Shown here: positions 7,355 to 37,549 of the stretch, piece after piece
Numbering within the stretch: the first letter of the stretch is position 1
How the letters are laid out: the number at the start of each line of letters is the position of its first letter
From: Tetrapyrgos nigripes
Lineage: Eukaryota > Basidiomycota > Agaricomycetes > Agaricales > Campanellaceae
Direction: 5' to 3'
Assembly: GCA_013368315.1 (NCBI GenBank)
Contig: JAACJM010000222.1
Location: 1 to 64,000 of the forward strand
DNA: 64,000 nucleotides
Position numbers and translations under genes: made by a program
The notes under the pieces: generated by a model
Seen by the model: the letters and a program-made list of their open reading frames with translations, nothing else
The model's database searches: none
What the model was told of the DNA's origin: nothing

Positions 7355-7359
7355 CTTCC

Positions 7360-7991
7360 TGTAATATCTATGCTTCCATACATCTTTCCAATCGTATCCG
7401 ATTCTTTTCTGAACTTCTTTTCCTTTTATTTCGAACTTCATTCCCTTTCATCCCGAACACTTTCCGATCATTCATTTCCGATTTCATATCCGAGCTCCAC
7501 TATTAATCTCCACACACAGATCCCATCCGGGAACTCGTGATTCATTTTGGATAACTACCGGATAGCTCGTATCTAATCTCCAAAGCTACTCCACTTCATC
7601 TCCAATCCGTTCCACTTTGTTTCCACTTTGTTTCCACTTTGTTCCGCAGTACTCCATCCATCTCCAATAGCACCATGTGCTTTTCCTTTATTTCCGAATC
7701 ATTCCTATCTTACTCCTATTCATTCCAATAGTTTCCAAAGTAGTACTTAAGCTAGCAACTTTGTAGTAGATAGCTTAAGTCTAAAATTGAATTAGCTGGT
7801 CTCCTAACTTCATCCGACTTCAGACAACAAAGTACCATCCTAACAGATTCCATTCCATGTCTTCCTTAGACTTCGATCTCAGAGACTACCGGTTCCGCCT
7901 GGTTCCGTCTTCATCCTTTCCTAAAACCCCAATAAGACTTCCGCTCGGGTCCGACGTGTTTCCTAATGCTAGGATCCGCCCGGACTTAACA
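7360..7991 (+). repeat. 5' LTR of the family-2 chromovirus (632 bp)
   Basis: Closely matches 14859-15479. The main difference is an extra ttccactttg unit near 7620. Pyrimidine-rich, with many TTTCC/TTCCG words. Further diverged copies of this LTR form the solo LTR at 42500-44870. Confidence 0.93.
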
Positions 7992-8023: not shown

Positions 8024-9559
8024 GTCCCTACGTTCTCAACCACGAACTCCTTCCCCGACACCGAACCTTACGGTTCCGGTGACTCCATTCAAAAACGCTT
8101 ATTATTCCAACCTCTTCCGTAACGTTCAAATTCGCCAACACAGACGCTCCGGCAGCATTTTCGCACACCCGAGCCCAACCAAACCCCGCACGAGTCCGTT
8201 TAAGGAATTCCTCGATAGCTGGGATGGCCCGGAGCCAGGAGACTCCGCAACCCTTACACAAACCCAAAGCCGTTCATACGTCCAACAGCAAACTCAAGGA
8301 TCCTCTTGAGCAGGACCCTCACGTACACCTGCCAATCCCGATGACAGCCGTGGTCCCCCACCGGGCCAGCATTACGGTCAGGGAGATGATGGGGACGACA
8401 ATGAACAACATCAGGGTGGTGGAGGAGGCGGATCTGACGACGGTGGCGGAGGACCACCGGATGATGGACCTCCGGGAGATGATGGTTCCGATGGTTCCGA
8501 CAACAACAACGATGACGATGACGAAAGGAGGCAGTTCATTACCGCTCTCCAAAGTTTCAATGAGATCATCGGAAAAGTTACACCTGGTCACAGTGAAAAG
8601 ACGGAAGTGAAGAAACCTGACGTTTTCGATGGGTCGGATCTGAAGAAGCTCCGTCCGTTCCTGATCCAGATCCAGATTAATCTCCAGAACCGTCCCAAGG
8701 CATATGCGACTGATGCCTCAAAAATCAGTTTCACTCTTTCCTATCTCTCCGGCACCGCACTCGAATTCTTTGAACCGGAAATCCTCAACCCAGATCCCAA
8801 GGAACCCGCTCCGTGGACCCTTAACTTTGGTATTTTCGTCAAGGAGCTGAAGGACAACTTCGGGGTTTTTGACGAGGTCGGGGATGCTGAGGACCGATTG
8901 GAGGCCCTATTCATGAAGGATTCCGATCGGGCCACGAAATACTGCGTCAAGTTCCAACAACTTGCTTCGCAGGTCGCTTGGGATGAGAATTCCTTGCGAC
9001 ACTTTTTCCGAAAGGGGTTGGCTCCGCAAATCAAGGATGCCCTTGCCCTAGTCTATGAGGAAATGAACCTTCCCCGTCTCAAATCCCAGGTTCTCCGAAT
9101 CGATTCCCGTTACTGGCGTCGCCAAACTGAAAAGAAACGGGAAGAAGGGAGCGGGGAAAAGGGAATTCTGGGGGGAAAGGCTCGGGAGGTAATAGTTCCG
9201 GATCCGGATCCAGAAAGCCCTCAAACTCCGGTAAAGGTGGGAAATCTGGAAATTCCTCCAATTCCTCCAATTCCAACTATAATCCCAACTCTAATTCATC
9301 CTCGTCGTCTTCGTTCCCTTCCGGTCAGAAGAAACCCTGGGCCAACAAGCTCGGGAAAGACGGAAAGTTATCCCAGGACGAAAGGGACCGCCGCAAGAAG
9401 AACAATCTCTGTATGTTCTGTGGCGGGAAGCATTCGACGGATGACTGTAACAAGCGGAAGGCAGCGAATGAAGCTCGCGGCCGAGCTGCAAACACGGAAA
9501 ACACCTCGTCCGGTAGTACTTCCGTGACTGGCACTGCTTCCACGCAGTCCCTAAAATAG
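8022..9559 (+). pseudogene. gag of the family-2 chromovirus (one UGA, one frameshift)
   Basis: The ATG at 8022 follows the leader hairpin. The N-terminal part (to 8306) is Ser/Pro/Arg-rich. A UGA at 8307-8309 then interrupts a frame that is otherwise continuous through a Gly/Asp-rich linker (8310-8540) into the retrotransposon gag domain (about 8600-9110; PDVFDGSDLKKLRPFL, LSGTALEFFEP, LRHFFRKGL). A frameshift lies near 9130-9200. Past it, a Ser/Asn/Lys-rich tail and a CCHC zinc knuckle (CMFCGGKHSTDDC near 9410-9448) follow in another frame, ending at TAG 9557-9559. Pol overlaps this stop in the -1 frame. Confidence 0.8.
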
Positions 9560-12500
9560 TCAGCGACTCTGATGCCTCAGCACGAGATCGGAGTTGCGTT
9601 GACTGGGATCGTGCCAATCAGGAGGTTACTCTCAACACCGCCGCTCTTTCCATTAAATCCTTAGTCATTCCACTTTCTATTCCCTCATATACTAAACCTG
9701 AACTTTCCATTTCTTTTCCCTCGCTTTTGGATTCTGGTTCTTCAGATTGTTTTATCGACTCTACTTACGTTTCCGAACATTTCCTACCTACCCTTTCCAT
9801 TCCTCCCGTTCGTCTACGCTTACTTGATGGTTCCGTACCCTGCACCCTGAATAAAGTATGCCGTCTTTCCGTTTACTTTCCGAAGGGGGAACGAATTCCT
9901 CTTGACTACTATGTCACTAATCTCGACTCAACTTGTAAGGGAGTCCTCGGATACAGTTTCCTTTCCCGCTACAACCCGTCGGTTGACTGGGTAAAAGGAA
10001 ACATCGATTTCCGTGACCCCGAACTGGTTGCTGTCACCCCATGCTCTGAACCCTGTGTGTCGCCCTCTGAGGCTGACCCGGATTCTCCGGTTTCCACACC
10101 GCTTCCGGCTGTAACGCCACCCATTCGTTCTAAAACATCATGGCCGTACGAACCCATCTATTCCTATCCTTCCGTCTCGCAAATGGCATCTTCCGTTGAC
10201 GACACCCGCATTAGCATCATCAGAGCAGCAGCTTTCCTTCGCTGTTGCAAACAGGATCAGCTTGAACCAATGGCGCTCCAGTTAACTTTGGATGCTGAGG
10301 TTCATGCGAAAGCCTCAAATTCAGAAACCCCACCTTCTCCAAAGGCTCCCGAATACTTAGCTGACTATTCCGATGTGTTTGACGAAAGACTTTCGGATAA
10401 ACTGGCTCTGCATCGCCCCTACGACCTCAAGATTGATCTTGTTGAGGGTGCAGCTCTGCCGATTGCTCGGATTTATCCAGTATCCGACAGGGAATTAGGA
10501 GAATTACGGAAATTTATCGACAAACATCTGACTATAGGTTTTATCAAACCTTCATCCTCCTCTTTGTGAAGAAGAAAAACAGAGAGCTTCGGCTTTGCGT
10601 TGACTTCCGTGGCCTCAATGCCATCATGAAGAAGGATAGGTATCCGCTTCCGCTTATTTCTGAGCTTTTAGACACTCCCCGGCGCGCGAAAGTCTATACC
10701 AAGTTGGATCTCCGTCACGCTTACCACTTGGTCCGCATCACTGAAGGGGATGAATGGAAAACCGCTTTCCGGACCCGCTACGGATCCTTCGAATGGAAAG
10801 TGATGCCTTTTGGTCTTAGTAATGCTCCCGCCGCCTTTCAGCGATTTATCAACAACATCCTCAAGGATCTCCTCGACGTTACTGTCATCGTCTACCTCGA
10901 TGACGTCCTGATCTATTCCGACAATGAGGAGGACCATCAGAAGCATGTTCGCGAAGTATTCCATCAGCTCCAAGAGCACGGACTCTTTGTCAATCCCGAA
11001 AAATGCTTCTTTTCCGTTGATACCATGGAGTATCTAGGCTACATTCTCTCCCCTGAAGGGTTAACAATGGATCCTTCTAAAATCCGAACTATCCTGGAAT
11101 GGCCCGTCCCTCGGAAGGTCCGGGATATACAATCTTTCCTAGGCTTCTGTAATTTTTACAGACGCTTCATCTTCAATTATTCGGATAGCGTCGTACCCCT
11201 AACCCGTCTCACCCGAAAAGCTATCCAGTGGAAATGGACGCAGGCATGCCAGGAATCTTTCGATTACCTTAAGCACGCTTTTACTTCCGCTCCGATCCTT
11301 GGTCATTGGGTTCCGAACCAAAAGATCATTGTCAAAACCGACGCTTCCGACTATGCTATCGCCGCAATCCTCTCTCTCCAGTACGATTCCAGAGAAATTC
11401 ACCCCATCGCATTCCATTCACGCACCTTACAATCCGCCGAACTCAATTACGACGTTCACGATAAGGAATTGCTTGCCATTTTTGAAGCATTCCGAATCTG
11501 GCGACACTACTTGGAAGGCTCCGGATCCCCTATCGATGTTGTTACCGATCACAAGAATTTGGAATATTTTTCAACCACTAAAATTCTAACACAACGACAA
11601 GTCCGATGGTCCGAGTATCTTTCCGCTTTCAATCTTATTATCCGATTCCGACCGGGTAAATTAGGTGCAAAACCCGACTCACTCACTAGACGATGGGACG
11701 TCTACCCAAAAGAGGGGGATAGCAACTACGCCAAGGTTAATCCGCAGAATTTCCGCCCAGTCTTCACCCAAGAACAACTTTCCGAATCGCTCCGAGCCTC
11801 TTTCCTCGAAGGACCCGCACTCCGTGCATCCGTTATCATGGATATTGAGAAACTCCATTCCACAATCCGAGAATCCTATGCTTCCGATCCGGAATCACAA
11901 GCCGGTCTCAAACTAGCTAAGGATTCCTTATCATCCCGATGGAAACTCGATGAATCCGGGTTACTACGCTTGGACGATAGGATTTTCATTCCTGGTGCTT
12001 CTGACCTTAGACTTCAAGTTTTGCGTCAACACCACGACCATTCCCTAGCAGGACACTTCGGACAAAACCGGACGCTTGACCTTATCTGACGCCACTATAC
12101 CTGGCCAAAGGTCCGAGAATTCGTTCGGGATTATGTCGCTTCCTGTACGGTTTGTGGTCGCAACAAGCCTCGTCGACATCGTCCTTATGGTCTCCTAAAG
12201 CCACTTCCCGTACCGGTCCGTCCGTGGGATTCGATTTCCATGGATTTTATCGAACAACTACTGGATTCCAACGGATACACAGCAATCCTGGTAATTGTGG
12301 ACTGCGCATCCAAACAAAGAATCTTCATTCTGACTCATGATACCATTACATAGGAACAGCTCGCGGAATTATTCGTTCTTCATGTTTTTTCTAAGCATGG
12401 TGTTCCCAACCATGTCACTTCCGACCGCGGTTCCAAATTCGTTTCCCATTTTTTCCGATCCTTAGGAAAAGCTTTGAATATGGAACTTCACTTCACTTCG

Positions 12501-13322
12501 GGTTATCACCCGGAAGCCGACGGACAAACCGAACGCACCAATCAAACACTCGAGCAGTACATCCGGATCTATTGTTCTTACCAACAGGATAATTGGTCTT
12601 CCCTACTTCCCATTGCTGAGTTCGCTTACAACAACGCTCCGAACGCTTCCACCGGAATCACACCCTTCTTCGCAAATAAAGGGTTTCACCCAAACTTAAC
12701 GGTTCATCCCGACTACAATCTCGCTTCCGAGCGCACCCGACATTTCGTTGTCAATCTCGAGGAACTTCATAGTTTCCTTTGGGATGAGATTCGAGAAGCT
12801 CAGAAACGTTACAAGGTACAGGCCGACAAACGCCGTCTAGATTTACCAGAAATCCCTATTGGTTTCGAAGTTTTTGTGTCCGCAAAACACATAAAAACTA
12901 CAAGACCCACTCCGAAGTTCTCCAAGAAATTCCTTGGCCCATTCAAAGTTCTCTCTCGCCCCAGCTCTCTTTCCTATGCCATAAAGCTCCCTGACTATCT
13001 CCGTGGGATCCACCCCGTTTTCCATGTGTCTCAACTCGAACCTGCTGTTCCCAACACGATTCCAAATCGTATCCCAGATCCGCCCACTCTGGTCGAGATT
13101 GAAGGTGAACTTGAATATGAAATCACCAAAATCTTAGACTCAAAAATCGATTGGCACCGTCGGAAATGTCCTCTACTATATTTGGTACAGTGGTCTGGTT
13201 ACGAAGGCACCGACGAAGAATTTTCCTGGCTTCCCACGGATGAGCTGACAGCTGAAGAAGCTATAGACGAGTACCATCAGAAAAATCCGAACAAACCCGG
13301 TCCTCTTCCAATTTCATCTTAA
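9556..13322 (+). pseudogene. pol of the family-2 chromovirus: PR-RT-RNaseH-IN-chromodomain, defective
   Basis: Starts in the -1 frame at the gag stop (AAATAG, 9554-9559). Aspartic protease has LLDSGSSDCF (Asp at 9730). RT spans about 10380-11180 with catalytic YLDDVLIYS near 10890. RNase H (KTDASDYAIAAIL, VTDHKNLEYF) lies at 11330-11560. Integrase has SLAGHFG, CTVCGRNK, DFIEQL, TSDRGSKF and HPEADGQTERTNQ between 12030 and 12550. The C-terminal chromodomain (YEITKILDSK..YLVQWSGYEGTDEEFSWLP) covers about 13108-13290. Damage: a short deletion with frameshift at about 10560 removes the conserved PAGAP-type region of RT, TGA stands at 12087-12089 and TAG at 12352-12354. Confidence 0.88.
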
Positions 13323-13548: not shown

Positions 13549-14567
13549 TCAATCTTCCTCTACCACTGCTTTTGATCTCGGTTTCTTCCCCTTTCCCTTC
13601 TTCTTTGGCTTCCTGAGCGAATCCGGCATGTCCAGCAACCTTGCCTCCATTCCCGTCCACTCCTCATCCTCCATTTTGGGAAGCGGGATATCCGACAATT
13701 CCGCGATCGCTTCTAGAACATTCCCCATATGGATGAGGCGACGGAGTTGGGCCAACTGTATGGCGCAAAGGGTTGAGACGTCGGGAAGGACGGCCTTCCG
13801 ACCGGTGAAACTACAACCCACACGTGATGCCGTGCAGGACTCGCAAGCACGTTTTCCGTCACCTTGGGATGTGCACTCCAAACCAAGCCGGTTACACCAG
13901 GAACACCGCTATACAAAATCAAGGTCAAAATCCGAAGGTAAAGAAAAATGGAAAAACAAACGTACCTCGGCATATGCCTCTCCATTCTCCACCTCAACCT
14001 CTTCCTCGCTCTCCGAATCTTCATCCCCAGATCCCTCGTCCCTACGTCTCCAAGCCGCACGAGGACTACTCGGTCCGGGATTCGCTTTTCTTTTTCCTCT
14101 CGCCTTCTCCGACGGGCCCGCATCAGAATGCTCCATTTCCACCTCTGGACCCCGTTCCGTCTGTTCCTTCTCCTTCCTTGCCCATTCCTCCAGCCGTTTC
14201 CTCTCCTCAGCCTCCAATTCCTCCTTCTTCGCCTTTTCCGTGTCTTTCCGCTGCTCCAACCACAACTCCATCAACTCTTCCGCAGCCTCGTATTCCTCCA
14301 TCAGAGCTTCATGTGCTTGTCGAGCTAAAGCCCATTCCGTTAGCATCCGTGGAAAACCCAATTCAAAACAGGTCACGCACCATTTTTATTTTCCTGACGG
14401 ATCCAATGCTTTTCCGTCACCCTCATACTATCATCGATCACTTGTTCCACCAAAGGTTCGGGTTGCACAGGAGCCGGAGGTTTCGCGTTGGACGTTGTCC
14501 ATTTGGTCATATACTCCATCAAGAGCATGGAGACGTCAAGGGGAACGTAGGAGGTGGTAGAAGACAT
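13549..14567 (-). CDS. Antisense three-exon gene with Zn(II)2Cys6 cluster inside the chromovirus 3' region
   Basis: Exons on the minus strand are 14567-14381, 14324-13966 and 13908-13549. The introns of 56 and 57 nt are GTGCGT..TTTAG (branch GCTAAC) and GTACGT..TATAG. The exons join in frame (187+359+360 nt) to an uninterrupted 301-residue protein. Residues about 65-120 are Glu/Lys/Arg-rich and likely coiled coil, and about 125-180 are acidic and Ser-rich. Residues 184-214 have the spacing C-x2-C-x6-C-x9-C-x2-C-x6-C of fungal Gal4-type binuclear zinc clusters. The tail is basic (KPKKKGKGKKPRSK), fitting a nuclear protein. The start follows a TATA box by about 46 bp. It is intact while gag-pol of the same copy is broken. 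DNA binding and function are inferred; I do not recognise the gene. Confidence 0.72.
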
Positions 14568-14571
14568 TGAT

Positions 14572-14858
14572 AACAGTGAAGTTGGTTTTGCTCTGCTTCC
14601 GAGGACTTCTCCTTTTTATATGTTTTCAAATTTCGCGCACGGACCATCCTTATTGTTTCCTGTTCATTTCGTTACCAATTACTTAATTTAGAAACCATTC
14701 ACAATCCCGATCGTTTCCATTTGTTTCCGATTCCATTGTTCATTTTCCGGGGTCCACCCCTTTTCTATTTTTTCTTCTATTGTCTTTTCAACTTCATTCC
14801 GATGGATTACTATTCGTTTCCATGCCTCTCAAGGGCTCGAGGCCTAAGAGGGGGATAC
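14572..14858 (+). other. Non-coding 3' region of the family-2 chromovirus
   Basis: Pyrimidine-rich sequence between the antisense gene start and the 3' LTR. It holds the antisense TATA box and, at about 14844-14857, the polypurine tract used for plus-strand priming. Confidence 0.55.
14613..14622 (-). promoter_or_regulatory. TATA box of the antisense gene
   Basis: The minus strand reads catataaaaagg about 46-55 bp upstream of the antisense ATG (14567). This is a canonical distance for a short 5' UTR. It lies within the internal 3' region, not in the LTR, so it would drive transcription independently of the LTR. Confidence 0.55.
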
Positions 14859-15479
14859 TGTAATATCTATGCTTCCATACATCTTTCCGATCGTATCCGA
14901 TTCTTTTCCGAACTTCTTTTCCTTTTATTTCGAACTTCATTCCCTTTCATCCCGAACACTTTCCGATCATTCATTTCCGATTTCATATCCGAGCTCCACT
15001 ATTAATCTCCACACACGGATCCCATCCAGGAACTCGTGATTCATTTCGGATAACTACCGGATAGCTCGTATCTAATCTCCAAAGCTACTCCACTTCATCT
15101 CCAATCCATTCCACTTTGTTTCCACTTTGTTCCGCAGTACTCCATCCATCTCCAATAGCACCATGTGCTTTTCCTTTATTTCCGAATCATTCCTATCTTA
15201 CTCCTATTCATTCAGATAGTTTCCGAAGTAGTACTTAAGCTAGCAACTTTGTAGTAGATAGCTTAAGTCTAAAATCGAACTAGCTGGTCTCCTAACTTCA
15301 TCCGACTTCAGACAACAAAGTACCATCCTAACGGATTCCATTCCGTGTCTTCCTTAGACTTCGATCTCAGAGACTACCGGTTCCGCCCGGTTCCGTCTTC
15401 ATCCTTTCCTAAAACCCCAATAAGACTTCCGCTCGGGTCCGACGTGTTTCCTAACGCTAGGATCTGCCCGGACTTAACA
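14859..15479 (+). repeat. 3' LTR of the family-2 chromovirus (621 bp)
   Basis: Starts TGTAATATCTATGC directly after the polypurine tract and ends CTTAACA. The next 5 bp (15480-15484, cttcc) repeat the 5 bp before the 5' LTR. Confidence 0.93.
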
Positions 15480-15484
15480 CTTCC

Positions 15485-16496
15485 AATGCATTCCATGACA
15501 GTAGACCACACAAGTGACTATCCTTCACAGGCTGTTCTGTGATTGGTAGATTCTTGATGGTAAAGCTGTAGCCTGTGTGGAAGTTGGCCCACCACTGTAG
15601 TGCTGCCTGGAGCTCCAGGTCCATGTCCCACCAGCTCCCCATCAAATCTCCATATTGTATGGTCCAGTCCTCCATGTCAACAACAATACTAACCCAGTGA
15701 GTGTCTGTCAAATTTGCAAGTGTTGCAAACTGTTTACACTTGCCAACTTTCCTAATCCAACAGAAACTTTGAGAGCATGTGTATGTGTTGACTTTGTTGG
15801 TTGCTTTTTTGTGTGCATGGTAAGCTTGAATAAGCTTCTTTGCAAAGAGCAGTAAGTCATTTGCTAACTCTTTATCAAGTTCCAATTGCAGCAATGGATA
15901 AAAATATCTTCATTCTTGTTGGATAGCCAGTGTGGTCCCAGGAGCTTGGATAGCTCAGACATGTCCATGTGTTGTGGAAAGCCATTGATGGGTCCTGACC
16001 AGGAAAGCTCTTTCAGAGCTTTTGCAACATCTTCTACAACTTCTCAGCTCCAATCATCCATATCCTTTGACTGCCTTGTGAGTGCCACTACATCATCCAT
16101 TGCCCTCTTCCACAACCTTTGCTTATCCTTCACTTTCATAGCCTCAAACCAGTGGTAACGCTTGTCCAATGTGAGAGGGTCATGTGGGCAATGAATGGAT
16201 TTTACATTGATGGACAGGTCTGACAGTGATGCATACAAGTGCTTGACAATGGTTTCAGGAGGGATGGGTGTGTAGAGGAGGGTATGGATAGTGGTGCCAT
16301 CTGTTGTTGGGCTTTCATTGCAGAAAAATTGATCAGCAAGGAGAACTTCAGTGTTGACTGAGTGAAAGGGAACGGGAGTGGGAAATCTGAGGAAGTTCGA
16401 GACTGGGAGGTCTTTTTTTGGTAGTATACAATCTTGTAATGCTGAAGGTATAGCAATGTTAATAGTAGACTCGTAAATCTCTATAGGTTTGGACAT
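15485..16496 (-). pseudogene. Ulp1-family cysteine protease (C48-type) of the DNA transposon, N-terminal and catalytic part
   Basis: Two minus-strand frames (16496-16044 and 15894-15485) encode an N-terminal region and a Ulp1 C-terminal catalytic domain. Visible catalytic landmarks are His in DTHWVSIVVD, Asp in QYGDLMG and Cys in DSHLCGLLSWNAL, in the order H-D-C expected for SUMO/Ulp1 proteases. The two frames are separated by about 150 bp with stops (an intron or damage; an intron is possible). The domain is cut after WNALE by the family-2 chromovirus and resumes at 7354. Ulp1 domains are known passengers of some plant MULE and fungal transposons. The substrate here is unknown. Confidence 0.7.
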
Positions 16497-16800: not shown

Positions 16801-16901
16801 CCCACAAACAGAAAATGTAGACTAGTAGTTGTAACAGTCCTTAATTTTCACCTTAGTCATACAAGTAGATCTTTTTCTATTCTGAGAGATAGATGAGATA
16901 C

Positions 16902-17402
16902 TGTCATGAACTGCTACAGTTCTTTGTCCTCCTTCCTCTTCTACTACATTACTGAACCTGTTTTCTGATCATTCGTCTATCACATTTCCTCGATAAACCT
17001 TTTTAACCTTATATTACTGACTTTGAACCTTATAAAACCTGTCAAACTCTATAATAACTGTCATCAATCTTCCTATCTTTCTTATCTACCATCTGTTCTT
17101 CCTGTCTTTGATTCGATCTCCTTATCTTTCTTAACCATATGGCATCATTCTATTTTTACTTACTTTTCCCATCCCTTCATATTTCTCATGTATACCTGAG
17201 ATCTTTTGTAACTGATTCCCCAGTTCGTTCACTTTATCTCTGCTCTGTTTATCTCTGCTCTGTACTACTACTACGCAGTGTAGAGCCCAGTCAGCTTACT
17301 CTTCTCCTCTACTCATATCTCTCTTGTTCAATCCATCATCTTCTATCTGCTCTCTGATTGTGTGACTTGGGTGGTTATTTGAGTGTATCAGCAACCTTGA
17401 CA
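16902..17402 (+). repeat. 5' LTR of copy B (501 bp)
   Basis: TGTCATGAACTGC..ACCTTGACA. Contains tatacc at 17191 and, 31 bp further on, AGTTCGTTCA (17222-17231). That 10-mer is the complement of the PBS and the predicted RNA 5' end. Confidence 0.92.
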
Positions 17403-17404
17403 CT

Positions 17405-17414
17405 TGAACGAACT
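17405..17414 (+). promoter_or_regulatory. Self-complementary primer-binding site of copy B
   Basis: TGAACGAACT two bases after the LTR, perfectly complementary to AGTTCGTTCA at 17222-17231 of the upstream LTR. The corresponding 10-mer of the 3' LTR (23940-23949) has one mismatch. Confidence 0.65.
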
Positions 17415-17670
17415 CCCATACACCCACCTCACTATCTTGAGTCTTTTCCTCATCTATCCTGTCTATCTCTACTCTCAAAATGTCTTTCCCCTCTTCCATC
17501 CTCATTCCATCTATACTGCAAGTGTCGTTCTTCTCTCCTGCAATTCGAATACGTTTCAATTGCTGAACAGATACTACTTTGAGTAGACTGCTATCCCACT
17601 GTGTACTTCGAGTAACAGTGTAGCAACAATCATCCTCCCTTCCATATATTCCTTTCACTCTGTCTACCCC

Positions 17671-18027
17671 ATTTTCTCAGATTCACTTTGAACCGCTGGA
17701 GAGTCCACCTGATTACAAACAACCTCCTCTCCCTCTACCACTCAATCTATTACACACCAAGTATTGGTGTAGCCATGCAGAAAGCATTCAAGCAGATCCT
17801 TGGAGTTACGATCGAAACTTCATCTGTACACATTGTTGGGTTTGGAAACTGGAACCAGGTGACATGATCCTTTCTGTCTATTTGTACATACGAGTCACCC
17901 TTGACCTCAATACCAAGGAGACTGTTATTAAGATTACTGGACCCCTGTTCTTCAAAGAATACAACACACCTACAGAACTTACAGACTACGGTACACTGTC
18001 CTCCTTTATCTTCGAATCCTCATGGTG
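17671..18027 (+). pseudogene. ORF0 relic of copy B
   Basis: Frameshifted counterpart of the conserved leader ORF. One frame still reads FICTHCWVWKLEPGDMILS, then LDLNTKETVIKITGPLFFKE and ends at a TGA near 18027, 48 nt before the gag ATG. The core residues CT.CWVWKL and GPLF match copies A and C, supporting that this was once coding. Confidence 0.55.
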
Positions 18028-18074
18028 ATTTAAAGGGCAGAGAAGAAGGCCCTAAGAGATTGTAGAAACAGTAT

Positions 18075-19654
18075 ATGGCAAGTCGATGAACAGAATCTGC
18101 AGATTCATCTCTTCCCTGTGCAAACTGTCCACATGCTTACTGGCCCAAATCTAAACAAGACGCTTATTTCACTGACGACGAAGACAATCTGTGGAAATTC
18201 TGCAACGATCTACTGTGTCTAAATAGATACAACAAACAAAAACTTCCTTCCAACGTTCCCTTTAATCTGCCACTCGAAGTTATAACCAATAATCAGGAAC
18301 TAGAAATTCGAAAAGCACATCCCACTATCGACTCCAAATCTGAACAAGACCAGGGAACATCTACCCCAACAAACACTTGACCAAATCCAGAACCCTCTCC
18401 TCTCGAACCACCTGATTTGTCTTCCACATCAGATCTGTTACCAAATCCATCATCTAATAATCCATCAACCCCTCCCCATGACCCTTCTCCCGAACCATCA
18501 GATCCAAATGATCCTTCTTCTCCCATCAATCCATCTACTGAAGGACCATCTGTAGCCCCTTGTTGACCAGCCCCTACACCATCTCCTGAACCATCAGATC
18601 CCGATGACCCAGCAATGTCAGATGTAGCACCTAACGACTCTAATAGTACTTGTGAACGAGGAAGGAAACCTGAAGCTTTCAACAGAGAACGTGATGAAGC
18701 AAAGCAGTGGTTAGCCTCATTCAACAACTACTTACGACAGAACAAGGCCAGATATTCTACTGAGGACTCCAAAATGTCCCTATTCCTCTCGTTCTTCACA
18801 GGAGAAAAAGGGGGGGATTGGGCAACCCAACAAATTACAGAATGAGAAGAAGATGAGGAGGATGTGAAAGTTAAACAAGATGAGAGGCGATGGACAATGC
18901 TAAAGGAGATCTGAGATAGGTTTAAAAGAGACTTCAAAGCACTTGCCTCCGACGAGGTCGCAAGAACGAAAATCAAGAATGCTAGGATGAAGGGAATGGA
19001 CATCAGTAGTTATAATAGTATCTTCGACACGTATGGGGAAGAATCAAACTTTGGGGAAACAGCCCTTTTGGATTATTACAAAGGAGGTCTCCCAGAGAAA
19101 CTTCGGAAGACAGTAGGAAGGATTTCGACAAGTATAGGGAGAGAATGATGGATCTTCATTTGGAATGGGTAAACAAGAGAGAAGGATGATCAAGACCATT
19201 TGCTACACCAAGAACGAATTCAGGTCCTTCTCAAGAAAGAACAATAGCAAGCGTGAATGTGCTTATGGGACCAGGTGCTAACTCATCCTTCACTCCATTA
19301 CCTAAACTGACACCTGATGAAAGAGATCGACTTCAAAAGCTAGGGGCATGTTTCACATGTAGACAACCTGGACATATGAGCAATGAGTATCCGACATTCC
19401 CAAACAATACCCCAAGATCTTCAACAACCCAGAAAACGTCTCGAAACTTCCCTTCTTGTGCTGTTAGGATAGTTGAAATTTCAACTTCATTGTCATCATC
19501 TAGTTCACCATCAGTAACAGTAGCTCAAACATCATCATTGTCTTCCTCTCATAACATTTCTGATATGGTAAATAAGGTCAAGGGATTGGAAGGAGAAGAG
19601 AAGGAACAAGCAGCTGAATATTTGAAGGACATTATGTCAAAGTTGGATTTTTGA
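18075..19654 (+). pseudogene. gag of copy B
   Basis: The ATG at 18075 corresponds to the gag starts of copies A and C. A TGA at 18087 replaces an Arg codon. Further on are CANCPHAYWP and TDDEDNLWKF..LCLNRYN, then a Pro/Ser-rich linker (about 18350-18600). The gag domain follows (KPEAFNRERDEAKQWLASF, LFLSFFTGEKGGDWA; 18640-19120), with TGA at 18843, 18912 and 19187. A CCHC knuckle (CFTCRQPGHMSNE, with the last Cys changed to Tyr in this copy) lies near 19350-19390, and the stop is at 19652-19654. A small deletion near 19115 shifts the frame. Pol begins in the -1 frame at TTTTTGA. Confidence 0.75.
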
Positions 19655-22600
19655 AAAACTCCTCTGCTACGTCGTCAGTAGGAGTTGTACAGTATACTGG
19701 ACAATTTTTGAACAATCGATATAGTGTGTTATACCCTTCTAGTGAGCGTACCTTTCCTTCAGAGTTAAAAGTGTTGGCAATCACTCGTAACCGACAGGTA
19801 CCCTCAATAACACTCAAAACTGAATTAATTGGCAAAATTACCAGCAGAAAAATCGACGCAGACACCCTAATAGACAGTGGTGCAGAAGGCATAATTATCA
19901 ACGGCCATTTCACATGAGAAAACCAACTAACCCTCCTTCCTATTAAAAGTCCATTCCCAGTACAAAATGTTGATGGTTCTGAAAACACCATGGGATGGGT
20001 ACAGCACTACACCATTCAAAAACTTTGTATCTACTCCCAGGACAACAAATCATATCATGAAGAAATAGCCAAATTCTATGTGATGGACATTGGAGATCAC
20101 AACATAATCCTTGGTACTGACTGGTTGGAAGAACACAATCCAGAAATAGATTGGTCGTTTACTAGAGTTAACATGTCTAGATGTCCCAAAACCTGCACCC
20201 TGGAACGACCCCCTGTTTTGAATTTACACACCAAACCCAAATCTCCCAAACCAACTGTTGACGATCCACGAACCAACCACAAGGATTATCAAGTAGCATG
20301 GTCAGAACCAATCGGACGATTTAAACCAATCATACAGCCAAAGGTTGTGGGTCAACGACACTGAATTCCCATACGATTGTTTCATCACTCTTCGGAATCT
20401 ACAGCTATCTTTACTGAAGAAGACTTTGGCCGGGATGAAGTTCCGAATCAATGGGAAAGAGAAGTGTTAGAAAAGTTGTTTGGAAAAGAAGAACAGGGCT
20501 CGACATCAGATTTAGAATTACCTATACGTGCTGGATTTACCAAAGCCCAAGAACTCGCAGAAGCAGCCCAAAAAATGAAAGAAGACACGTCGCTTACAGA
20601 TAAGATTCTGTCTCAATATCATCAATTTCTACCAGTTTTTGACAAACAAACTTCAGAACGGCTACCGAAACATGGCGAATGGGATCATGCTACTGAATTA
20701 AAACTGGACTTTGAACCTCACCCCTGCAAAACATATCCCCTATCACTGAACGAACAAAAGGAACTTGATGACTTTATTAAAGAAAATTTGGAAAAGGAAT
20801 ATATAAGACCGTTGAAGTCTCCCATGGCAAGTCCTTTCTTCTTTGTCGAGAAGAAAGACAGAAAAATACGCCCTGTACAGGACTATCGTGCATTAAATAA
20901 AGGAACCATAAAGAACGAATACCCTTTACCACTCATATCGGAACTCGTAGACAAACTCAAGGGGGCTCAAGTCTTTTCAAAGATTGACCTTAGATGGGGA
21001 TATAATAATGTATGAATAAAAGAAGGGGACAAGTGGAAAGCAGCATTTAAAACCAATAGAGGGCTTTTCAAACCAACAGTGATGTTCTTTGGTCTTATGA
21101 ACTCTCCTGCCACCTTCCAAGCAATGATGAATACTGTTTTCAAGGACCTTATCAATTCTGGGAAAGTTGTTATCTATATGGACAACATCTTGATATTTAT
21201 GGAGTCTTTGGAAGAACATCGGCACATGGTCAAGCAAGTACTTGCACGACTTCAGGAAAATGACCTATATGCCAAACCAGAGAAATGCACCTTCGAAACT
21301 GATTCAGTGGAATTCTTAGGCCTCATTGTTTCCCACAATACATTGGCTATGGATCCTGTCAAAGTCAAAGGCATCACCAAATGGCCAACCCCACGAAATG
21401 TCAAGGATGTTCAATCGTTCCTGGGGTTCGTGAACTTCTACTGTCATCTCATACGTGACTTTTCTAAGGTTGCTCGACCACTCTTCAACCTGACAAAGAA
21501 GGATGAACCATGGAAATGGTCAGATGAAACAGAAAGAGCCTTTCAGGCACTCAAAGATGTGTTCATGTCTTCACCAGTTCTCTTAATGCCTGATCATTCT
21601 AAACCATACTGAGTAGAAGTCGATGCTTCTGATTACACCACAGGAGGTATTTTACAACAAAAGGGACCTGATGACAAATGGCATCCAGTCGCCTATTTAT
21701 CGAAATCTTTATCTGAAACTGAACGTAACTACGACATTCATGATAAAGAATTGTTGGCAATTATACATGGATTAGAAGCTTGGCAACACTACCTCAAAGG
21801 GGGACCACATACTATCAAAATCCTCACTGATCACAAGAACTTGAAATACTTCACTACCGCTCAGAAACTTAGCTGGTGACAAGCAAGGATGGCCTTGTTT
21901 CTGACCAGATTTGACTTCATGTTAACCCATAAACCTGGAAGCCTCAATTGGAGTGATCCCCTTTTCCAAAGACCAGATCATAAAAAGGGGGTCGAAAACG
22001 ACAACAAAGACAGAGTATTACTCGATCCTAAGTTCTTCAGGATTCAAGCGACAAGACCAGGAGATGCTGAATTGAGAAGACGTATTAAAGATTGCCCAAA
22101 GAAAGACATTGAAGTTGTGAGTGCCCTGCAGGTCATCTTAAACAGCAGTCCATGCTCACTAGTCAAAAATTTACAGGAATAGAACTATGAAGACGGAATC
22201 ATCTTGTTCAGAGGAAAGATTTACATTCCAAACAAAGAGACATAGTCAAAATGCATCACAACAGCCTCACTGCAGGACATTCAGGCCAGTTTAAAACATA
22301 TGAACTGGTTAGCAGAGAGTTCTGGTGGCCCAGTATGTCAGTGTTTGTCCATGATTATGTTGAAGGATGCCAATTGACCAAGGCACAAAACCATCTGGCA
22401 CATGTACCATTAATCCCAAACAAAACACCAGAAAGACCTTTTGGCACAATTACAACCGACCTCATCACAGACCTTCCAGAATGTGAAGGTTTCAGTGCAA
22501 TTCATGTAATGGTAGACAGATCAACTAAAACTGTAGTAATCTCACCATGCCAGAAGGATATTGACAGTGACAGGACAATTGATGTGCTATTCAACAACAC

Positions 22601-23619
22601 TTGGCAATGTTATGGTCTTTGGGATAAGATGATATCAGACAGAGGACCTCAATTTGCGAGTCAGGCTATGAAAGGGATATATGCTAAGTTAGGTATTACC
22701 TCAGCACTTAGTACAGCTTATCACCCACAAACAGATGGAGAGACCGAAAGGTTTAACCAAGAGCTTGAACAGTATCTGTGAACCTTTTGCAACTATTGAC
22801 AAGATGATTGGGTCAAATACCTGCCTTACATGGAGTTCTGCCATAACACTCAAGTCCACTCTGCTACTGGAAAATCACCCTTCGAATTGCTCCATGGATA
22901 CCTTCCTCAACTCTTTCCTTCAATCAACCCTACCTCACACATCCCAAAAGTTGAAGAACGCCTTCAGAACTTAGAAGCACTACGGGAAGAATTGAAAGCA
23001 ACTCTGATGACTGCTGCAGAGTTGATGAAGAGACAAAATATGGATCATGTAAAAGAAGGGATGAAATTCAAAGTTGGGGACAAGGTACTACTGGATGGAA
23101 AGAACTTGAAGACCATGAGGCCAAAAGCTAAGTTGACAAATTGCTGTCATGGCCCATTCGAGATCACTGATGTAATCAGCAAAGTTAACTACCATCTCAA
23201 ACTGCCAAACACCTGGCAGATCCATCCACTCTTTCATGCTTTGCTTCTATCACCATACAAAGAAACTGAAGCCCATGGAGCAAACTACCCAGGCGAACCA
23301 GCTGAATTGCTTCCAGAAGACAACAAATATGATGTCAAAGCAATCTTGGATTCAAAACCAATGAGAAATCGATGGGGAGTGCAGTATCTAGTCAAATGGT
23401 TAGACTATTCCAACTCAGAGAATTCATGGGAACCAGCATCAGGGTTGATGAAACTAAAGGAGATGATCGAAACCTTCCATTGAGATCACCCAGATGTATA
23501 TCGTCCGCCAAACTTGGTATGAGCAGGATCTACAGTACGTTTGATGGGAATTAGCATGGAGGATATTTGGAAAAGTACATGTGTGCTCCAGGTGAAAGCA
23601 CAGCTTAAAGAGAGGGTAA
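19651..23619 (+). pseudogene. pol of copy B: PR-RT-RNaseH-IN-chromodomain, many stops
   Basis: Protease has LIDSGAEGIII near 19870. RT (20700-21600) has YMDNILIF instead of YMDD at about 21176-21199. A TGA at 21610 separates RT from RNase H (VDASDYTTGG, DKELLAII, LTDHKNLKYF). Integrase has HHNSLTAGH and lacks one Cys pair of its HHCC finger, with a deletion near 22367. It retains ITTDLITDLP, ISDRGPQF and HPQTDGETERFNQ. TGA replaces Arg codons at 22779 and 22797. The C-terminal chromodomain (YDVKAILDSK..YLVKWLDYSNSENSWEPASG) ends near 23450. The frame runs on without a stop into the 3' LTR, about 11 bp after KAQL. Confidence 0.85.
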
Positions 23620-24102
23620 TGTCACAAACTGCTACAGTTCTTTGTCCTCCTTCCTCTTCTACTACATTATTGAACCTGTTTTCTGATCATTCGTCTATCA
23701 CATTTCCTTGATAAACCTTTTTAACCTTATATTACTGACTTTGAACCTTATAAAACCTGTCAAACTCTATAATAACTGTCATCAATCTTCCTATCTTTCT
23801 TATCTACCATCTGTTCTTCCTGTCTTTGATTCGATCTCCTTATCTTTCTTAACCATATGGCATCATTCTATTTTTACTTACTTTTCCCATCCCTTCGTAT
23901 TTCTCATATATACCTGAGATCTTTTGTAACTGATTCCCCAGTTCATTCACTTTGTCTCTGCTCCATACTACTACACAGTGTAGAGCCTAGTCAGCTTACT
24001 CTTCTCCTCTACTCATATCTCTCTTTTTCAATCCATCGTCTTCTATCTGCTCTCTGATTGTGTGACTTGGGTGGTTATTTGAGTGTATCAGCAACCTTGA
24101 CA
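23620..24102 (+). repeat. 3' LTR of copy B (483 bp)
   Basis: TGTCACAAACTGC..ACCTTGACA, homologous to 16902-17402 with a short deletion in a ctctgctctg repeat. Followed by gatac, the TSD. Confidence 0.92.
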
Positions 24103-32220: not shown

Positions 32221-32723
32221 TGTCAAGGTCGTCGATACACTTAATAACCACCCAAGTCACACAATACAAGAAAGCCAGTTACAAGAGGATAGATTGATAG
32301 AGAGAGAGAGAGAAAGAAGTAGTAAGCTGACTAGGCTCCACACTGCGTAGTAATAGTATGGAGCGGAGACGAAGTGAACGAACTAAGGAATAGGTTACAA
32401 AGATCACAGGTATATAAGTAAAATATGAACAGATGGGAAAGAGTAAGTAATAATAGACAGTATCATGTGGAAACGTCAAGAGTGAGAGAGTAATGAGTTA
32501 GATATGGATAGATGAAGGTACTGGATCATAAGGAATGATTGACAGTGAGAATATCCATGGAGATAGGAAACGGAGGAAATAAGAGTATGAGTCATAGATC
32601 TATGGAGATGGTAACTGTAGACAGTGATGGGAAATGGTTGATGTTTATGGGGTTAAAGTGGGAAGTAGGTAGTAAAGGGAAAAGAATAGAAAGGAAATGA
32701 ATAGGCGGGGGCGATTCATGACA
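32221..32723 (-). repeat. 3' LTR of copy C (503 bp)
   Basis: In element orientation TGTCATGAATCGCC..CCTTGACA. Preceded by the polypurine tract (aaagagggggtaa, 32724-32736). TATATAA at 32411-32417 lies 27 bp upstream of the predicted RNA start (32384). Confidence 0.93.
32411..32417 (-). promoter_or_regulatory. TATA box in the family-1 LTR
   Basis: TATATA 27 bp upstream of AGTTCGTTCA in element orientation. The same pair occurs in the other LTR of this copy (39924-39930 and 39888-39897) and, as tatacc at 31 bp, in copy B (17191 and 17222). Confidence 0.6.
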
Positions 32724-32744
32724 TTACCCCCTCTTTAAGACGAG

Positions 32745-33541
32745 CTTTCACCGGAGCTCGGCAAGCTGTTTGCCCAGTGTTTCGCCCATTGTTTGCGAAG
32801 TCATCTGTCCACGTCTCCCTGACTCGGCCAGTAGTTCATTAAGTTGTCCCATCCAGTTGTGTAGTTTGTAGTACTCCACCTAGGATCGTTCCAGTCTGTT
32901 AAGTCCCCCCACTCTGTCGTGTTGGTTGCAGTACCCCAGCCTGCTCCATCCCATCCATCGTTGTTATCATGTTGTAGGGTGATATGTGCGCCCCATACGC
33001 TGCCGTCTCCCCATCCCAGGTTCCCTCTGTGTTCTGCTCGTAGGGATGTCCACTGAACTACACATCTAGCTCAATGTCCTCTGCCCAGTCTACATCGCCC
33101 TGGTCCATCCTCTCCTCCCCACATGCAGCGTTGGCATCCGTTGTGAGGTCCTTGGTGCTGTCTCGAGAGTCGACATTGACGTCCCGAGCGTTTTCCATAG
33201 GTGCAACGTCCTCCGTTGGTTGGGTGTGCGTTATGAGCGATAGTGTCAGTGGAAGAAGTGGTCGACATGATGACGAGAGTGTGGGTGATTGTTGTTGGAA
33301 TGGTAGCGATGGATGGTGTTCTGTAGCTTCTCCGTTGTGGAGAGGGATCTTTTATAGTTGTTGGTTTGTATGGTGTAGAGGTTGAACGAACGGTCAGGTT
33401 ATCATTTGGAGACGGGTTTGACAGTAGATGCCGTTAACGAGGGAATGCGATCAACGAATGATGACAAAACTCTGAGTTCGATTGCCGAGTGGGGTGGGAA
33501 GGAGGGCATAGAATACCAGCGGTTCGTAACAGTGTTTCTCC
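32745..33541 (-). other. Extra segment between pol and the 3' LTR of copy C
   Basis: In copy B pol ends 11 bp from the 3' LTR. Here about 0.8 kb intervenes. It is bounded by two versions of the same pol-end motif: gcttcaagcgaaagcacaac near 33545-33565 and ctccggtgaaagctcg near 32741-32757. The second corresponds to the pol-end sequence of copy B (about 23586-23612). Shortly after pol the minus strand reads TGTTACGAACCGC, an LTR-like start. Near 33350-33357 it has actataaaagatc, a TATA box, followed by a short ORF at 33268. This looks like an LTR/leader fragment of another element captured by recombination. Confidence 0.5.
33071..33268 (-). CDS. Small Cys-rich ORF in the extra segment of copy C
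   Basis: 65 codons, starting about 85 bp below a TATA box (ctataaaag). It has RCTYGKRSGRQCRL and GPHNGCQRCMWGG, giving five closely spaced Cys with His. In an overlapping frame an acidic ORF (MENARDVNVDSRDS..) runs to 33060. Either could be the first codons of another retroelement's gag. I do not recognise a domain, and coding status is uncertain. Confidence 0.3.
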   Translation of the reverse strand: MSTTSSTDTIAHNAHPTNGGRCTYGKRSGRQCRLSRQHQGPHNGCQRCMWGGEDGPGRCRLGRGH

Positions 33542-36500
33542 TCAGAGTTGTGCTTTCGCTTGAAGCACACGAGTACTTCGCCATATATCTTCTATGGTGA
33601 TTCCTAGTGAACGTACCGTTGTTCCAGGGCGTATCAGGTTTTTTGGTCGATACGCATTTGGATGCTGTTGGTGGAAGGTTTCGATCATTTCCTTCACCTT
33701 CGTCAATCCTGATGCCGGTTCCCATGAATTCTCTGAGTCAGCATAGTCTAACCATTTGACAAGGTATTGTACTCCCCGGCGGTTTCTCATTGGTTTTGAG
33801 TCTAGAATTGCTTCCACATCGTATTCATTGTCTTCGGGAAGTAATTCTGCTGGTTCCCCTGGGTAATTCACTCCGTGAGCTTCGGTTTCTTTGTAAGGCG
33901 ATAGGAGTGAAGCGTGGAACACTGGATGAATGCGCCAAGTATTCGGTAATTTGAGTCGGTAATTGACTTCACTAATAACGTCAATGATTTTGAACGGTCC
34001 GTGACGACGATTTGCCAACTTAGCTTTCGGCCTCGTTGTCTTCAGATTTTTCCCGTCTAGCAACACTTTGTCCCCAACTTTAAACTTCATCCCTTCGTTC
34101 GTATAGTCCTTGTTTTGTTCTTTCATCAGTTCTGCCACTGTCACCAGACTTGCTTTTAGTTCCTCTCGGAGAGTATCTAAGTTCTGGAGGCGTTCTTCGA
34201 CCTTTGGTACGTGTGAAGTCGGATTGATGGAAGGGAAGAGTCGGGGTAGATATCCATGGAGCAGTTCGAACGGCGATTTCCCAGTTGCCGAATGGACTCG
34301 GGTATTGTGGCAGAATTCGGTGTAAGGTAGGTATTTAACCCAATCGTCTTGGCGATAGTTACAGAAGGTTCGAAGATACTGTTCGAGTTCTTGATTGAAC
34401 CTCTCTGTCTCACCATCTGTTTGTGGATGATAAGCTGTACTGAGTGCCGAGGTGATACCTAACTTAGCATATATTCCTTTCATCACTTGGCTTGCGAATT
34501 GAGGTCCGCAGTCAGATATCATCTTGTCCCACAACCCGTATCGTCACCAGGTGTTGTTGAATAATAGGTCAATTGTTCCGTTGCTATCGATATCCTTTCT
34601 GCATGGAGAAATGACAACTGTTTTTGTTGAACGATCAACTGTGACGTGAATTGCATTAAAGCCGTCACATTCTGGCAGATCCGTGATGAAGTCGGTTGTA
34701 ATTGTGCCAAAGGGCCGTTCTGGTACCTCGTTCAGAATCAGTGGTACATGCATCGGGTGGTTATTTGCCTTGGTCAACTGACAGGTAGCACATCCTTCGA
34801 CGTAGTTACAAACAAATACTGACATACCAGGCCACCAGAATTCTCTACTGACGAGTTCGTACATTTTGAATCGTCCCGGATGTCCTGCAGTAAGGCTGTC
34901 GTGATGCATTTTAACAATGTCTCGTCTGAGTTGTTGGTCGTTTGGGACGTAGATCTTCCCTCGAAACAGGACGATTCTGTCTTCGTAATTCCATTCCTGT
35001 AGATTTTTTGCCAACGCGCGTGGTCCGTTGTTAAAGATGGTTTGTAACGCACTTACAACTTCAGCATCCTTTTTCGGACATTCCTTAATCCGCCTTTTCA
35101 ATTCTGTATCCCCCATTGCAGTTACCGTTCCTGGCCTCGTCGCTCGAATCCTGAAGAACCTGGGGTCAAGCAAGACCCTATCTTTGTTGTCATTCTCGAC
35201 CCCCTCTTTATGGTCTGATCTCCGAGAGAGTGGGTCACTTCGGTTCAGGTTCCCGGGTTTGTGAGTGAGCGTAAAATCGAATCTGGTCAGAAACAGGGCC
35301 ATTCTTGCTTGTCGTCAGCTAAGTTTCTGAGCGGTGGTGAAGTATCTAAGGTTGTCGTGATCGGTTAAGATTTCGATGGTATGTGGTCCGCCCTCCAGGT
35401 AATGTCGCCAGGCTTCAAGTCCGCGTATGATCGCTAACAATTCTTTATTGTGAATGTCGTAATTCCGTTCGGTTTCGGATAAAGCTTTTGACAGGTAGGC
35501 TACCAGATGCCATTTATCATCTGGTCCTTGTTGTTGCAGGATACCTCCTGTAGCGTAGTCTGACGCATCAACTTCTACTCAGTATGGTTTAGAATGATCA
35601 GGCATGAGGAGGACTGGTGAAGTCGTAAACGTATCTTTGAGTGCTTGGAAAGCCTTTTGAGCTTCCTCGGACCATTCCCATGGGTGCTCCTTTTTTGTGA
35701 GATTGAACAGTGGTCGTGCGATTTTTGAGAAATCACGTATGAAACGATGGTAAAAGTTTCCGAAGCCAAGGAATGATTGTACGTCTTTGATGTTGCGTGG
35801 GGTTGGCCATTTGGTCACGCCTTCCACCTTGACTGGGTCCATGGCCAGCGTATTGTGTGAAACGATAAGGCCGAGGAATTCCACTGAATCGGTTTCGAAA
35901 GTGCATTTCTCCGGTTTAGCGTACAGATCGTTATCCTGGAGTCGTGCGAGTACTTGTTTTACCATGTATCGGTGTTCTTCTAGTGATTCCGTGAATATGA
36001 GAATATTGTCCATATAAATCACGACTTTTCCAGAGTCGATTAGGTCCTTGAATAGAGTGTTCATCATTGCTTGGAACGTGGCTGGAGAATTCATAAGCCT
36101 GAAGAACATCACTGTTGGTTCAAAGAGACCGCGATTGGTTTTAAACGCTGCTTTCCATTCATCTCCCTTTTTGATGCGTATGTTGTTATATCCCCATCTG
36201 AGGTCGATTTTGGAAAACATCCGTGCTCCCTTTAGTTTGTCTACGAGTTCCGATATGAGCGGTAGGGGGTATTCGTTTTTGATGGTCCCTCTGTTTAAGG
36301 CGCGATAGTCCTGTACTGGTCATAGCTTTCTGTCTTTCTTTTTTACAAAGAAGAAAGGACTTGCCATAGGAGACTTCGACGGTCTTATATATCCCTTCTC
36401 TAAGTTTTCCTTGATGAATTCGTCGAGTTCCTTTTGTTCATTTGGGGATAAAGGGTACGTTTTGCAGGGGCGTGGTTCAAAGTCCGGTTTTAGTTCGATA

Positions 36501-37549
36501 GCATGATCCCATTCGCCACGTTTCGGTAATCGTTCTGAGGTTTGTTTGTCAAAGACTCGTAAGAACTGATGATATTGTGAAGGAATCTTATCTTTAAGAG
36601 GTATATTGATCTGAGTGTTCTGGGCTGCCTCTGCAAGTTCTTGTGCCTTTGTGAACCCTGCACGGATATTTAGGTTTGGTGTTCCTGATTTTTCCTCGTC
36701 TACTCTTTCCTCGTTCCCCAACAGTTCTTCCATTGCGTCTTGTTCCCATTGTTCTGGGATAGTATCTCTCCCACAATCGTCTTCCGTAAAGATCGCCGTT
36801 AACTCCGAACTTCGATGGAAGGATCGAATAGGAATCTGACGACGTCGCCCTGCGATTTTTGACTGGGCAACTGGTTTGAATTGTCCAATTGGTTCCAACC
36901 ATTTGACTTGGTAATCTTTGTGATGGGTTCTTGGATCAACGACTGCGGATTTCAAAGGTTTCGTTTTAGTTTTCAAATGGAGAATAGGGGGATTCACTAT
37001 GGTACACGTTTCTGGGCATCTGGTCATGCCTATTCGCGCGTCCAACCAGTCTATATCAGGGTTGTGTTCCTCCAACCAGTCGGTACCGAGGATTATATCG
37101 TGATCCCCGATGTCCGTCACGTAGAACTCGGCCTTTTCCTCGTGGTACGCCCTGTTGTCCCGAGAGTAGATACGGAGATTTTGGATGGTGTATTCTCGTA
37201 CCCATCCCATAGTGTTTTCGGAGCCGTCAATGTTTTGTACTGGGAACAGTTTTTCGATAGGAAGAAGGGTGAGTTGATTTTCTTGTGCGAACCGGCTATT
37301 AATGATTATGCCTTCTGCACCGCTGTCTATTAGGGCGTTTGCGTCGATTTTTCTGCCAGTAACCTTGCTGATTAATTCAGTTTTGAGTGTGATTGATGGT
37401 ATCTGTCGGTTACGAGTGATTGCCGACATTCTTAATTCTGAAGGAAAGACTCGCTCACTAGAGGGGTATAACACACTATATCGATTGTTCTTTAACTGTC
37501 CGGTGTACTGTTCTACTCCTACTGACGACGTAGCAGAGGAGTGATTCAA
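33542..37549 (-). pseudogene. pol of copy C: PR-RT-RNaseH-IN-chromodomain, five stops
   Basis: Starts in the -1 frame at the gag stop (37549). Protease has LIDSGAEGIIINSRF near 37320. RT (about 36510-35600) is cut by TGA at 36322-36320 ([11 protein letters not shown]) and has YMDNILIF near 36012. RNase H follows TGA 35581-35579, a stop shared with copy B, and LS*RQARM carries TGG to TGA at 35317-35315. Integrase has a complete HHCC finger (HHDSLTAGH, CATCQLTK) and TTDFITDLP. It also has ISDCGPQF, where R is changed to C, and HPQTDGETERFNQ, with TGA at 34546-34544. GPF and a chromodomain (YDVEAILDSKPMRNR..YLVKWLDYADSENSWEPASG) complete it, ending at 33542. Confidence 0.88.

Follow-up and report, generated by a model that had tools for sequence, protein, structure and literature searches.

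An intron-bearing antisense gene for a Zn2Cys6-like protein in one chromovirus lineage of Tetrapyrgos nigripes, a candidate regulator of its own element

A chromovirus lineage in the genome of Tetrapyrgos nigripes carries, on the strand opposite to gag-pol, an intron-bearing gene for a zinc-cluster-like protein. We consider it likely that this is a functional accessory gene of the lineage, which would be transcribed and spliced and whose product would bind zinc and DNA and, at a target in the element, regulate the element's transcription. The copy described here lies in a window of 64,000 nucleotides (contig JAACJM010000222.1), and the genome that was searched is the one with the window (98.5 Mb, 587 contigs). 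The element that carries the gene lies on the plus strand, with its domains in the order gag, RT, RNase H, integrase, chromodomain, and consists of the following parts:

7355..7359 and 15480-15484, target-site duplication CTTCC, at the outer flank of each LTR
7360..7991, plus strand, 5' LTR of the chromovirus, from blastn of the two LTR regions, starting with TG and ending with CA
8607..9527, plus strand, gag piece with Ty3_capsid and Retrotrans_gag, from the ORF list and a domain search
9727..10569, plus strand, protease-region piece (Asp_protease_2 at E 0.17 only)
10566..12089, plus strand, RT, RNase H and start of integrase (RVT_1 5.9e-41, RT_RNaseH 6.8e-33, Integrase_H2C2 1.3e-6)
12474..13322, plus strand, later part of integrase with SH3-like domain and chromodomain (SH3_Tf2-1 4e-16, Chromo 2.2e-7)
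14859..15479, plus strand, 3' LTR of the chromovirus, from the same blastn, TG to CA

LTRs with a target-site duplication, the order RT, RNase H, integrase and a chromodomain at the integrase end identify it as a chromovirus (Ty3/Gypsy). The two LTRs differ by 15 mismatches and 2 gap openings over 633 alignment columns (blastn). Gag-pol is open as four pieces only (8607-13322), which agrees with the initial annotation that gag, RT and integrase are broken in this copy. A minus-strand ORF at 15457-15894 (HWVSIVVD..DSHLCGLLSW), which overlaps the end of the 3' LTR, resembles a Ulp1-type protease in our reading; the element could have landed in a gene of this kind.

Other elements were also observed in the window. 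A second LTR element at 16899-24102 has LTRs at 16899-17402 and 23617-24102, which are 97-98% alike over the matched parts; its RT is 43% and its integrase 32% identical to those of the first, and neither an antisense relative nor a CGGAA array (see below) was found in it. A third, at 32299-40235 on the minus strand, has an RT 39% and an integrase 36% identical to those of the first and is likewise without antisense gene or CGGAA array. Besides, an LTR-like stretch at 891-1315 resembles the LTR of the third element, and direct repeats at 81-660 and 39075-39644, 39 kb apart, are 83-95% alike.

The antisense gene runs on the minus strand from 14567 to 13549, between the end of pol (13322) and the 3' LTR, which is the placement of an antisense additional ORF (aORF-3R) of LTR retrotransposons (between pol and 3' LTR, opposite strand). 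Its structure in the window copy is as follows:

14381..14567, minus strand, exon 1, with the ATG at 14567
14325..14380, minus strand, intron 1, 56 nt, GTGCGT..TTTAG, with CTAAC ahead of the acceptor
13966..14324, minus strand, exon 2, Glu/Lys-rich and coiled-coil-like, then an acidic stretch
13909..13965, minus strand, intron 2, 57 nt, GTACGT..TATAG, phase 0
13549..13908, minus strand, exon 3, with the six-cysteine cluster, a long helix, a lysine-rich tail and the stop

As the initial annotation had proposed, the three exons join in frame through two canonical introns, giving 906 nt (301 codons and the stop), and the cysteines have the spacing C-x2-C-x6-C-x9-C-x2-C-x6-C, at residues 184-214.

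To describe the spread of the gene, we searched the genome by DNA and by protein. Among 42 listed DNA matches, some of which are halves of one copy, 30 loci were examined, the window copy included. The protein search gave at least 173 matches (131 candidates scored), some of them, among the matches listed, at 37-46% identity. Six distant loci (L061-L066) were fetched, and each of the six has a homologue with 34-40% protein identity (tblastn), placed opposite an integrase with 68-88% identity to that of the window. For the integrase, 138 of 1248 candidates were scored and gave 140 matches, from which 14 rows were dropped as second fragments; 72 of the places typed are related (73-100% identity) and 54 are distant (33-46%). 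Among the matches listed, the gene lies within 3.5 kb of 61 of the 72 related places, that is, in most copies, as is required of an aORF-3R, and in all 61 pairs it is downstream of the integrase on the opposite strand. The other 11 related places have no gene among the matches listed, 9 of 70 typed gene places have no integrase among them, and for the 54 distant places the listed matches include no gene within 6 kb. As far as the listed matches go, the gene therefore belongs to one chromovirus lineage, in which it has kept its place while the protein diverged to 34-46% identity. Three protein searches and a viral-contig scan yielded no relatives beyond this genome; we take these sources to be mostly prokaryotic or viral, so this absence says little about fungi.

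To characterise the product, we compared it with zinc-cluster proteins. The Zn(II)2Cys6 pattern is C-x2-C-x6-C-x(5-12)-C-x2-C-x(6-8)-C, and it was matched in all 13 aligned exon-3 sequences from three families (chosen as open), in which the six cysteines are invariant. A search with the Zn_clus profile, which the initial annotation had suggested as a check, gave a weak match to 9 of these 13 sequences (best E 0.026), but the Pfam profile search of the whole 301-aa protein gave no Zn_clus (PF00172) match; since the curated PF00172 score is not reached, we name the domain Zn2Cys6-like and do not file it in the family. The AlphaFold model (mean pLDDT 68.7, pTM 0.34) is helical behind the cluster, and 19 of its 20 Foldseek matches in the PDB are Zn2Cys6 domains, at E 0.2 or worse. 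We regard a zinc-cluster fold as probable. In DNA-binding clusters, basic residues usually stand between the second and third cysteine, and here these are largely missing; on balance we lean towards a protein that binds DNA. A single sequence match to a solved structure (E 5.1) and an EAD11 match (E 0.011-0.056) were taken as chance. LysM3_LYK4_5 matched 3 of the 13 exon-3 sequences (best E 1.2e-4) and LysM matched 2 (6.4e-4), and this reading was set aside because the structure predicted for the window copy consists of helix after the cluster. Our guess is that the LysM3_LYK4_5 match corresponds to the stretch GDTMDAIAKHFKIDVKEV of the L063 clade (L063:1692-2072 and relatives).

The region upstream of the gene contains two further candidate features:

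14612..14647, minus strand, putative antisense promoter, the box TATAAAAA (14620-14613) and a block beginning ATGGTCCGTGC
14568..15479, minus strand, one-strand array of CGGAA / TCGGA, candidate binding sites, in the upstream region and the 3' LTR

The TATA-like box reported upstream of the gene is indeed present, 46 nt above the ATG. In six sequences from three families, the block ATGGTCYGTGC.. and a TATA-like box recur at a like position upstream of the ATG; for example, L061, L063, L064, L068 and L070 have a similar block with a TATAAA or TACAAA box there. Read on the gene's strand, the 841 bases above the ATG (14568-15408) contain 14 CGGAA, where shuffles give 2.0, and the opposite strand has none; for the 3' LTR up to its end at 15479, the two strands have 11 and 0. 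In all 30 copies, the 800 nt above the gene contain 6-13 CGGAA, every one of them on the strand of the gene. Among the more distant relatives, the motif is enriched in L061, L062, L063 and L064 (5-8 vs 0.6-1.0 in shuffles), weakly so in L068 (4 vs 1.3, reached by 7 of 200 shuffles), and L069 is without the array (1 vs 0.7). In L061, L063 and L064, TGGAA (13-14) and CAGAA (7-8) are abundant, which is what CpG decay of CGGAA would give.

The rarity of the array elsewhere was checked on two other elements and two flanks in the window. The LTRs of two other, gene-less chromovirus-like elements contain no CGGAA and the elements show no internal excess; shuffles of these LTRs expect only 0-0.5 sites, so the zeros indicate the lack of an array without indicating depletion. 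A comparison among copies gave no support to conservation of the CGGAA sites: their non-CpG columns vary at 0.036, against 0.053 elsewhere (p 0.15). The CpGs inside the sites are more variable among copies than other CpGs (0.274 vs 0.208, about 840 nt, 30 copies). Since the sites do not have significantly lower variability and their CpGs vary more, the array is a lead and supplies a candidate site only. As an observation aside, the higher CpG variability would fit a mutation process in TCG context. Five short, low-scoring tandem rows were found in 14500-15450, and a tandem origin would account for the array partially at most. Judged by synonymous shuffles, TTCCG, the reverse complement of CGGAA, is overrepresented in the protease piece and in the RT piece (a level reached by 0 of 300 shuffles); the excess is unclear in gag (22 of 300), and the integrase shows none (227 of 300).

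Based on these features, the gene might work as follows. Minus-strand transcription would start from a promoter that lies between the 3' LTR and the gene, and the host would splice the pre-mRNA, whose two short introns can each be lost. The product would act in the nucleus and bind DNA; it would have a zinc cluster of six cysteines like that of Gal4, an acidic and coiled-coil-like middle and a lysine-rich tail. It would most likely bind CGG-type sites, first of all those of the one-strand (T)CGGAA array found upstream of the gene and in the LTR of the same element. In this way it would control the transcription of its own element by activation, self-limitation or relief from silencing. As the target, the own LTR is tentative, at less than even odds.

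The protein could also be real and selected and yet non-regulatory. It might help to choose integration sites, take part in nuclear import or export, or assist the assembly of particles, and its cluster would then serve protein or RNA contacts. Such a role would suit a cluster that lies far from the N-terminus, a lysine-rich tail and the absence of the basic loop that DNA-binding clusters usually have, and the integrase of the element already has a chromodomain. Against it, the Foldseek matches of the predicted model are almost all DNA-binding clusters, and the one-strand CGG array occurs in three families (not in L069) and is absent from the LTRs of the two gene-less elements. We regard a non-regulatory protein as unlikely, while giving it real weight, and prefer a regulator of the element's transcription.

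The introns themselves differ among relatives. In the L062 family (four copies, L068, L069 and L070 among them), intron 1 is exactly absent, whereas intron 2 interrupts the same codon position and has its AG in 3 of 4. In the L063 clade, intron 1 is present in 8 of 10 loci (its site is deleted in L061 and not covered in L065), and intron 2 is exactly absent in 9 of 10, including L063, L072, L073 and L077; in the tenth, L074, a deletion spans the site of intron 2. L076, a relative of the L063 clade, has both introns, each with AA replacing the acceptor AG. For instance, the junction of intron 1 reads KENDA/AMDEY in L063 (with the intron at the slash) and GENDAAQKMK in L068 (without it), and that of intron 2 reads GEAFEE/LCNHC in L076 (with intron) and GDAFEDLCDQC in L063 (without). 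The exon-3 tree requires one change for intron 1 and two for intron 2, with the intron-2-bearing L076 nested in the intron-2-less clade, and in the whole-gene tree (unrooted) L076 pairs with L074.

The initial annotation had argued that introns on the minus strand persist through the sense-strand genomic RNA, and the facts fit this: they would survive retrotransposition because the genomic RNA is the sense strand, which leaves minus-strand introns in place. Relatives that lack one or the other intron exactly add evidence for splicing, and, judged from the sequences, the gene is very probably spliced. The absences point to antisense RNA that was spliced and then reverse-transcribed, which would be the simplest account; template switching during plus-strand synthesis, for example, may have been the route. 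If gain or chance deletion had produced the differences instead, the nested position of L076 and its two changes of intron 2 would find a place, and no outgroup roots the three families, so that gain may account for one of the two introns. Both sites, however, are exact to the base and the codon and common to deep lineages, and only one of the two branches can contain the root, which calls for one exact loss at the least, or else for two gains in parallel at an identical base. L074, which pairs with L076, is uninformative because its deletion covers the site. Gain or chance deletion is unlikely in our judgement, and reverse transcription of spliced antisense RNA remains the preferred account.

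Comparative evidence for the gene also comes from the 30 copies examined. Intron 1 keeps both GT and AG in 30 of 30, and intron 2 keeps GT in 29 and AG in 30. In 14 of 30, the start codon, the reading frame through the three exons and one stop only are intact, so that other copies do carry the ORF whose absence had been named as a ground for doubt. A dN/dS near 1, the other such ground, was not found either: summed over pairs, the spliced frame has a dN/dS of 0.259 in the 14 intact copies and 0.272 in all 30 (0.26-0.27), with pN 0.049-0.051 against pS 0.166-0.179 and the third codon positions most variable. Four control frames of the joined exons, the two other antisense and two of the three sense frames, lie at 0.897-1.340, and column shuffles of the 14 intact copies (n=60) have a mean of 0.615 and a minimum of 0.433. 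By rising synonymous distance over 435 pairs, dN/dS drops from 0.441 (4 pairs) through 0.351 (64), 0.289 (207) and 0.248 (128) to 0.211 (32), as expected if selection acts on the multiplying lineage while dead single copies drift. In comparison, the integrase piece of the window family has a dN/dS of 0.178 (23 rows; six rows with fewer than 780 aligned bases and one without match were left out), and exon 3 has 0.147 in five open copies of the L063 clade and 0.410 in two copies of the L062 family. Of the gap runs relative to the window copy, 43 of 47 in exon 2 are a multiple of three, but the introns have 1 such run among 61, exon 3 only 1 among 6 and exon 1 none (0 of 1); since the copies share descent, these counts are not independent events. 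From these sequence comparisons the antisense gene is almost certainly real and selected.

The antisense transcript could alternatively act as RNA, e.g. as double-stranded RNA with gag-pol, the protein being irrelevant; such roles of antisense transcripts are discussed for retroelements in passages of PMC7264820, but the selection falls on amino acids, as the pN and pS values show, and we consider an RNA role very improbable. Constraint on a sense-strand ORF (373 codons from a TTG at 13439 in the window copy), of which the antisense frame would be a shadow, draws on longest stop-free sense runs of 207-343 codons in the 30 copies and on the third sense frame of the joined exons at dN/dS 0.307-0.319. 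That frame, however, has its wobble positions in common with the antisense codons, and this only inside the joined exons; the 60 of 61 intron gap runs that are not multiples of three would shift it midway, the splice dinucleotides are kept and the distant families align in the antisense exons. A real sense gene was therefore rejected on indel phases and splice-site retention, and this reading, largely refuted, is the most improbable of all.

Antisense ORFs had been noted as known in plant gypsy elements, which is right as far as it goes, but they are not confined to plants, since a Boty-like element of Botrytis has brtn, according to the papers that cite it. The ORFs of plant Gypsy elements (gene23 of Grande, RIRE2, TRP28 of Retand) are similar to the present gene in place, orientation, presence in most copies and a suspected DNA-binding or nuclear regulatory role, as far as passages of PMC7264820 and PMC11963269 describe them. 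According to the same passages, Grande gene23 has its own promoter, and what antisense genes do for LTR retrotransposons is described as unknown. TRP28 is predicted to bind DNA in a passage of PMC11963269, and a passage of PMC7264820 describes no clear similarity of the plant antisense ORFs to other proteins as of 2020. They differ in that their protein is another one and that the main texts of the two papers (PMC7264820, PMC11963269) mention neither 'intron' nor 'zinc' words; Retand, moreover, belongs to a non-chromovirus lineage. The brtn of the Boty-like elements of Botrytis cinerea (Virology 2011, 417:248, as cited in other papers) resembles the present gene in that it is fungal and an extra antisense gene beside a chromodomain gag-pol, CHROMO being listed among the Boty gag-pol domains in a passage of PMC4227169.

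In titles and abstract beginnings of the open literature, we noticed no antisense gene of a fungal LTR element that is spliced or codes for a zinc cluster. Only reference lists and passages brought brtn to light, so others may hide likewise and prior notice is possible. As far as our searches reach, the zinc-cluster-like product, the introns on the antisense strand and the exact absence of introns in relatives appear new against the known antisense ORFs. The exact intron absences would be a natural record of antisense transcripts of a retrotransposon being spliced and entering reverse transcription. Besides, the gene offers a recognisable domain of DNA-binding type, selection that could be measured, a number of families to compare and a definite candidate site, which makes the question of function testable with one protein and one DNA array.

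With Zn(II)2Cys6 regulators (Gal4-type, PF00172), the product shares the six-cysteine spacing and, in the predicted model, two short helices, and the model has fold matches to the domains of Gal4, Hap1, Leu3, Put3 and Pho7; unlike them, it is retrotransposon-borne, has its cluster in the C-terminal 40% and scores weakly in Pfam. HBZ is the antisense gene of the HTLV-type retroviruses. The resemblance to these retroviruses lies in a minus-strand accessory gene, there with its promoter within the 3' LTR (PMC10186651, and passages of PMC7264820). As described in part of PMC5735166, VANC21 of VANDAL21 binds a short motif that is arrayed densely and in one orientation, mainly in its own non-coding DNA. 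The Arabidopsis VANC system is analogous in that here, too, a one-strand CGGAA array accompanies an element-encoded gene, and different in that it belongs to a plant element with an unrelated protein, while our motif is a candidate only, its excess reaches parts of pol and its sites lack conservation among copies. A bolder proposal, which we find rather doubtful, is that the host-spliced zinc-cluster protein recognises the one-strand (T)CGGAA array of its own LTR and serves the element alone as regulator or anti-silencer, which would make it the counterpart of VANC in a chromovirus. In this proposal, spliced antisense mRNA is also reverse-transcribed at times, and this erased introns exactly in two lineages. 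In conclusion, a gene for a zinc-cluster-like, probably DNA-binding protein that evolution has kept intact suggests that this element makes its own regulator.
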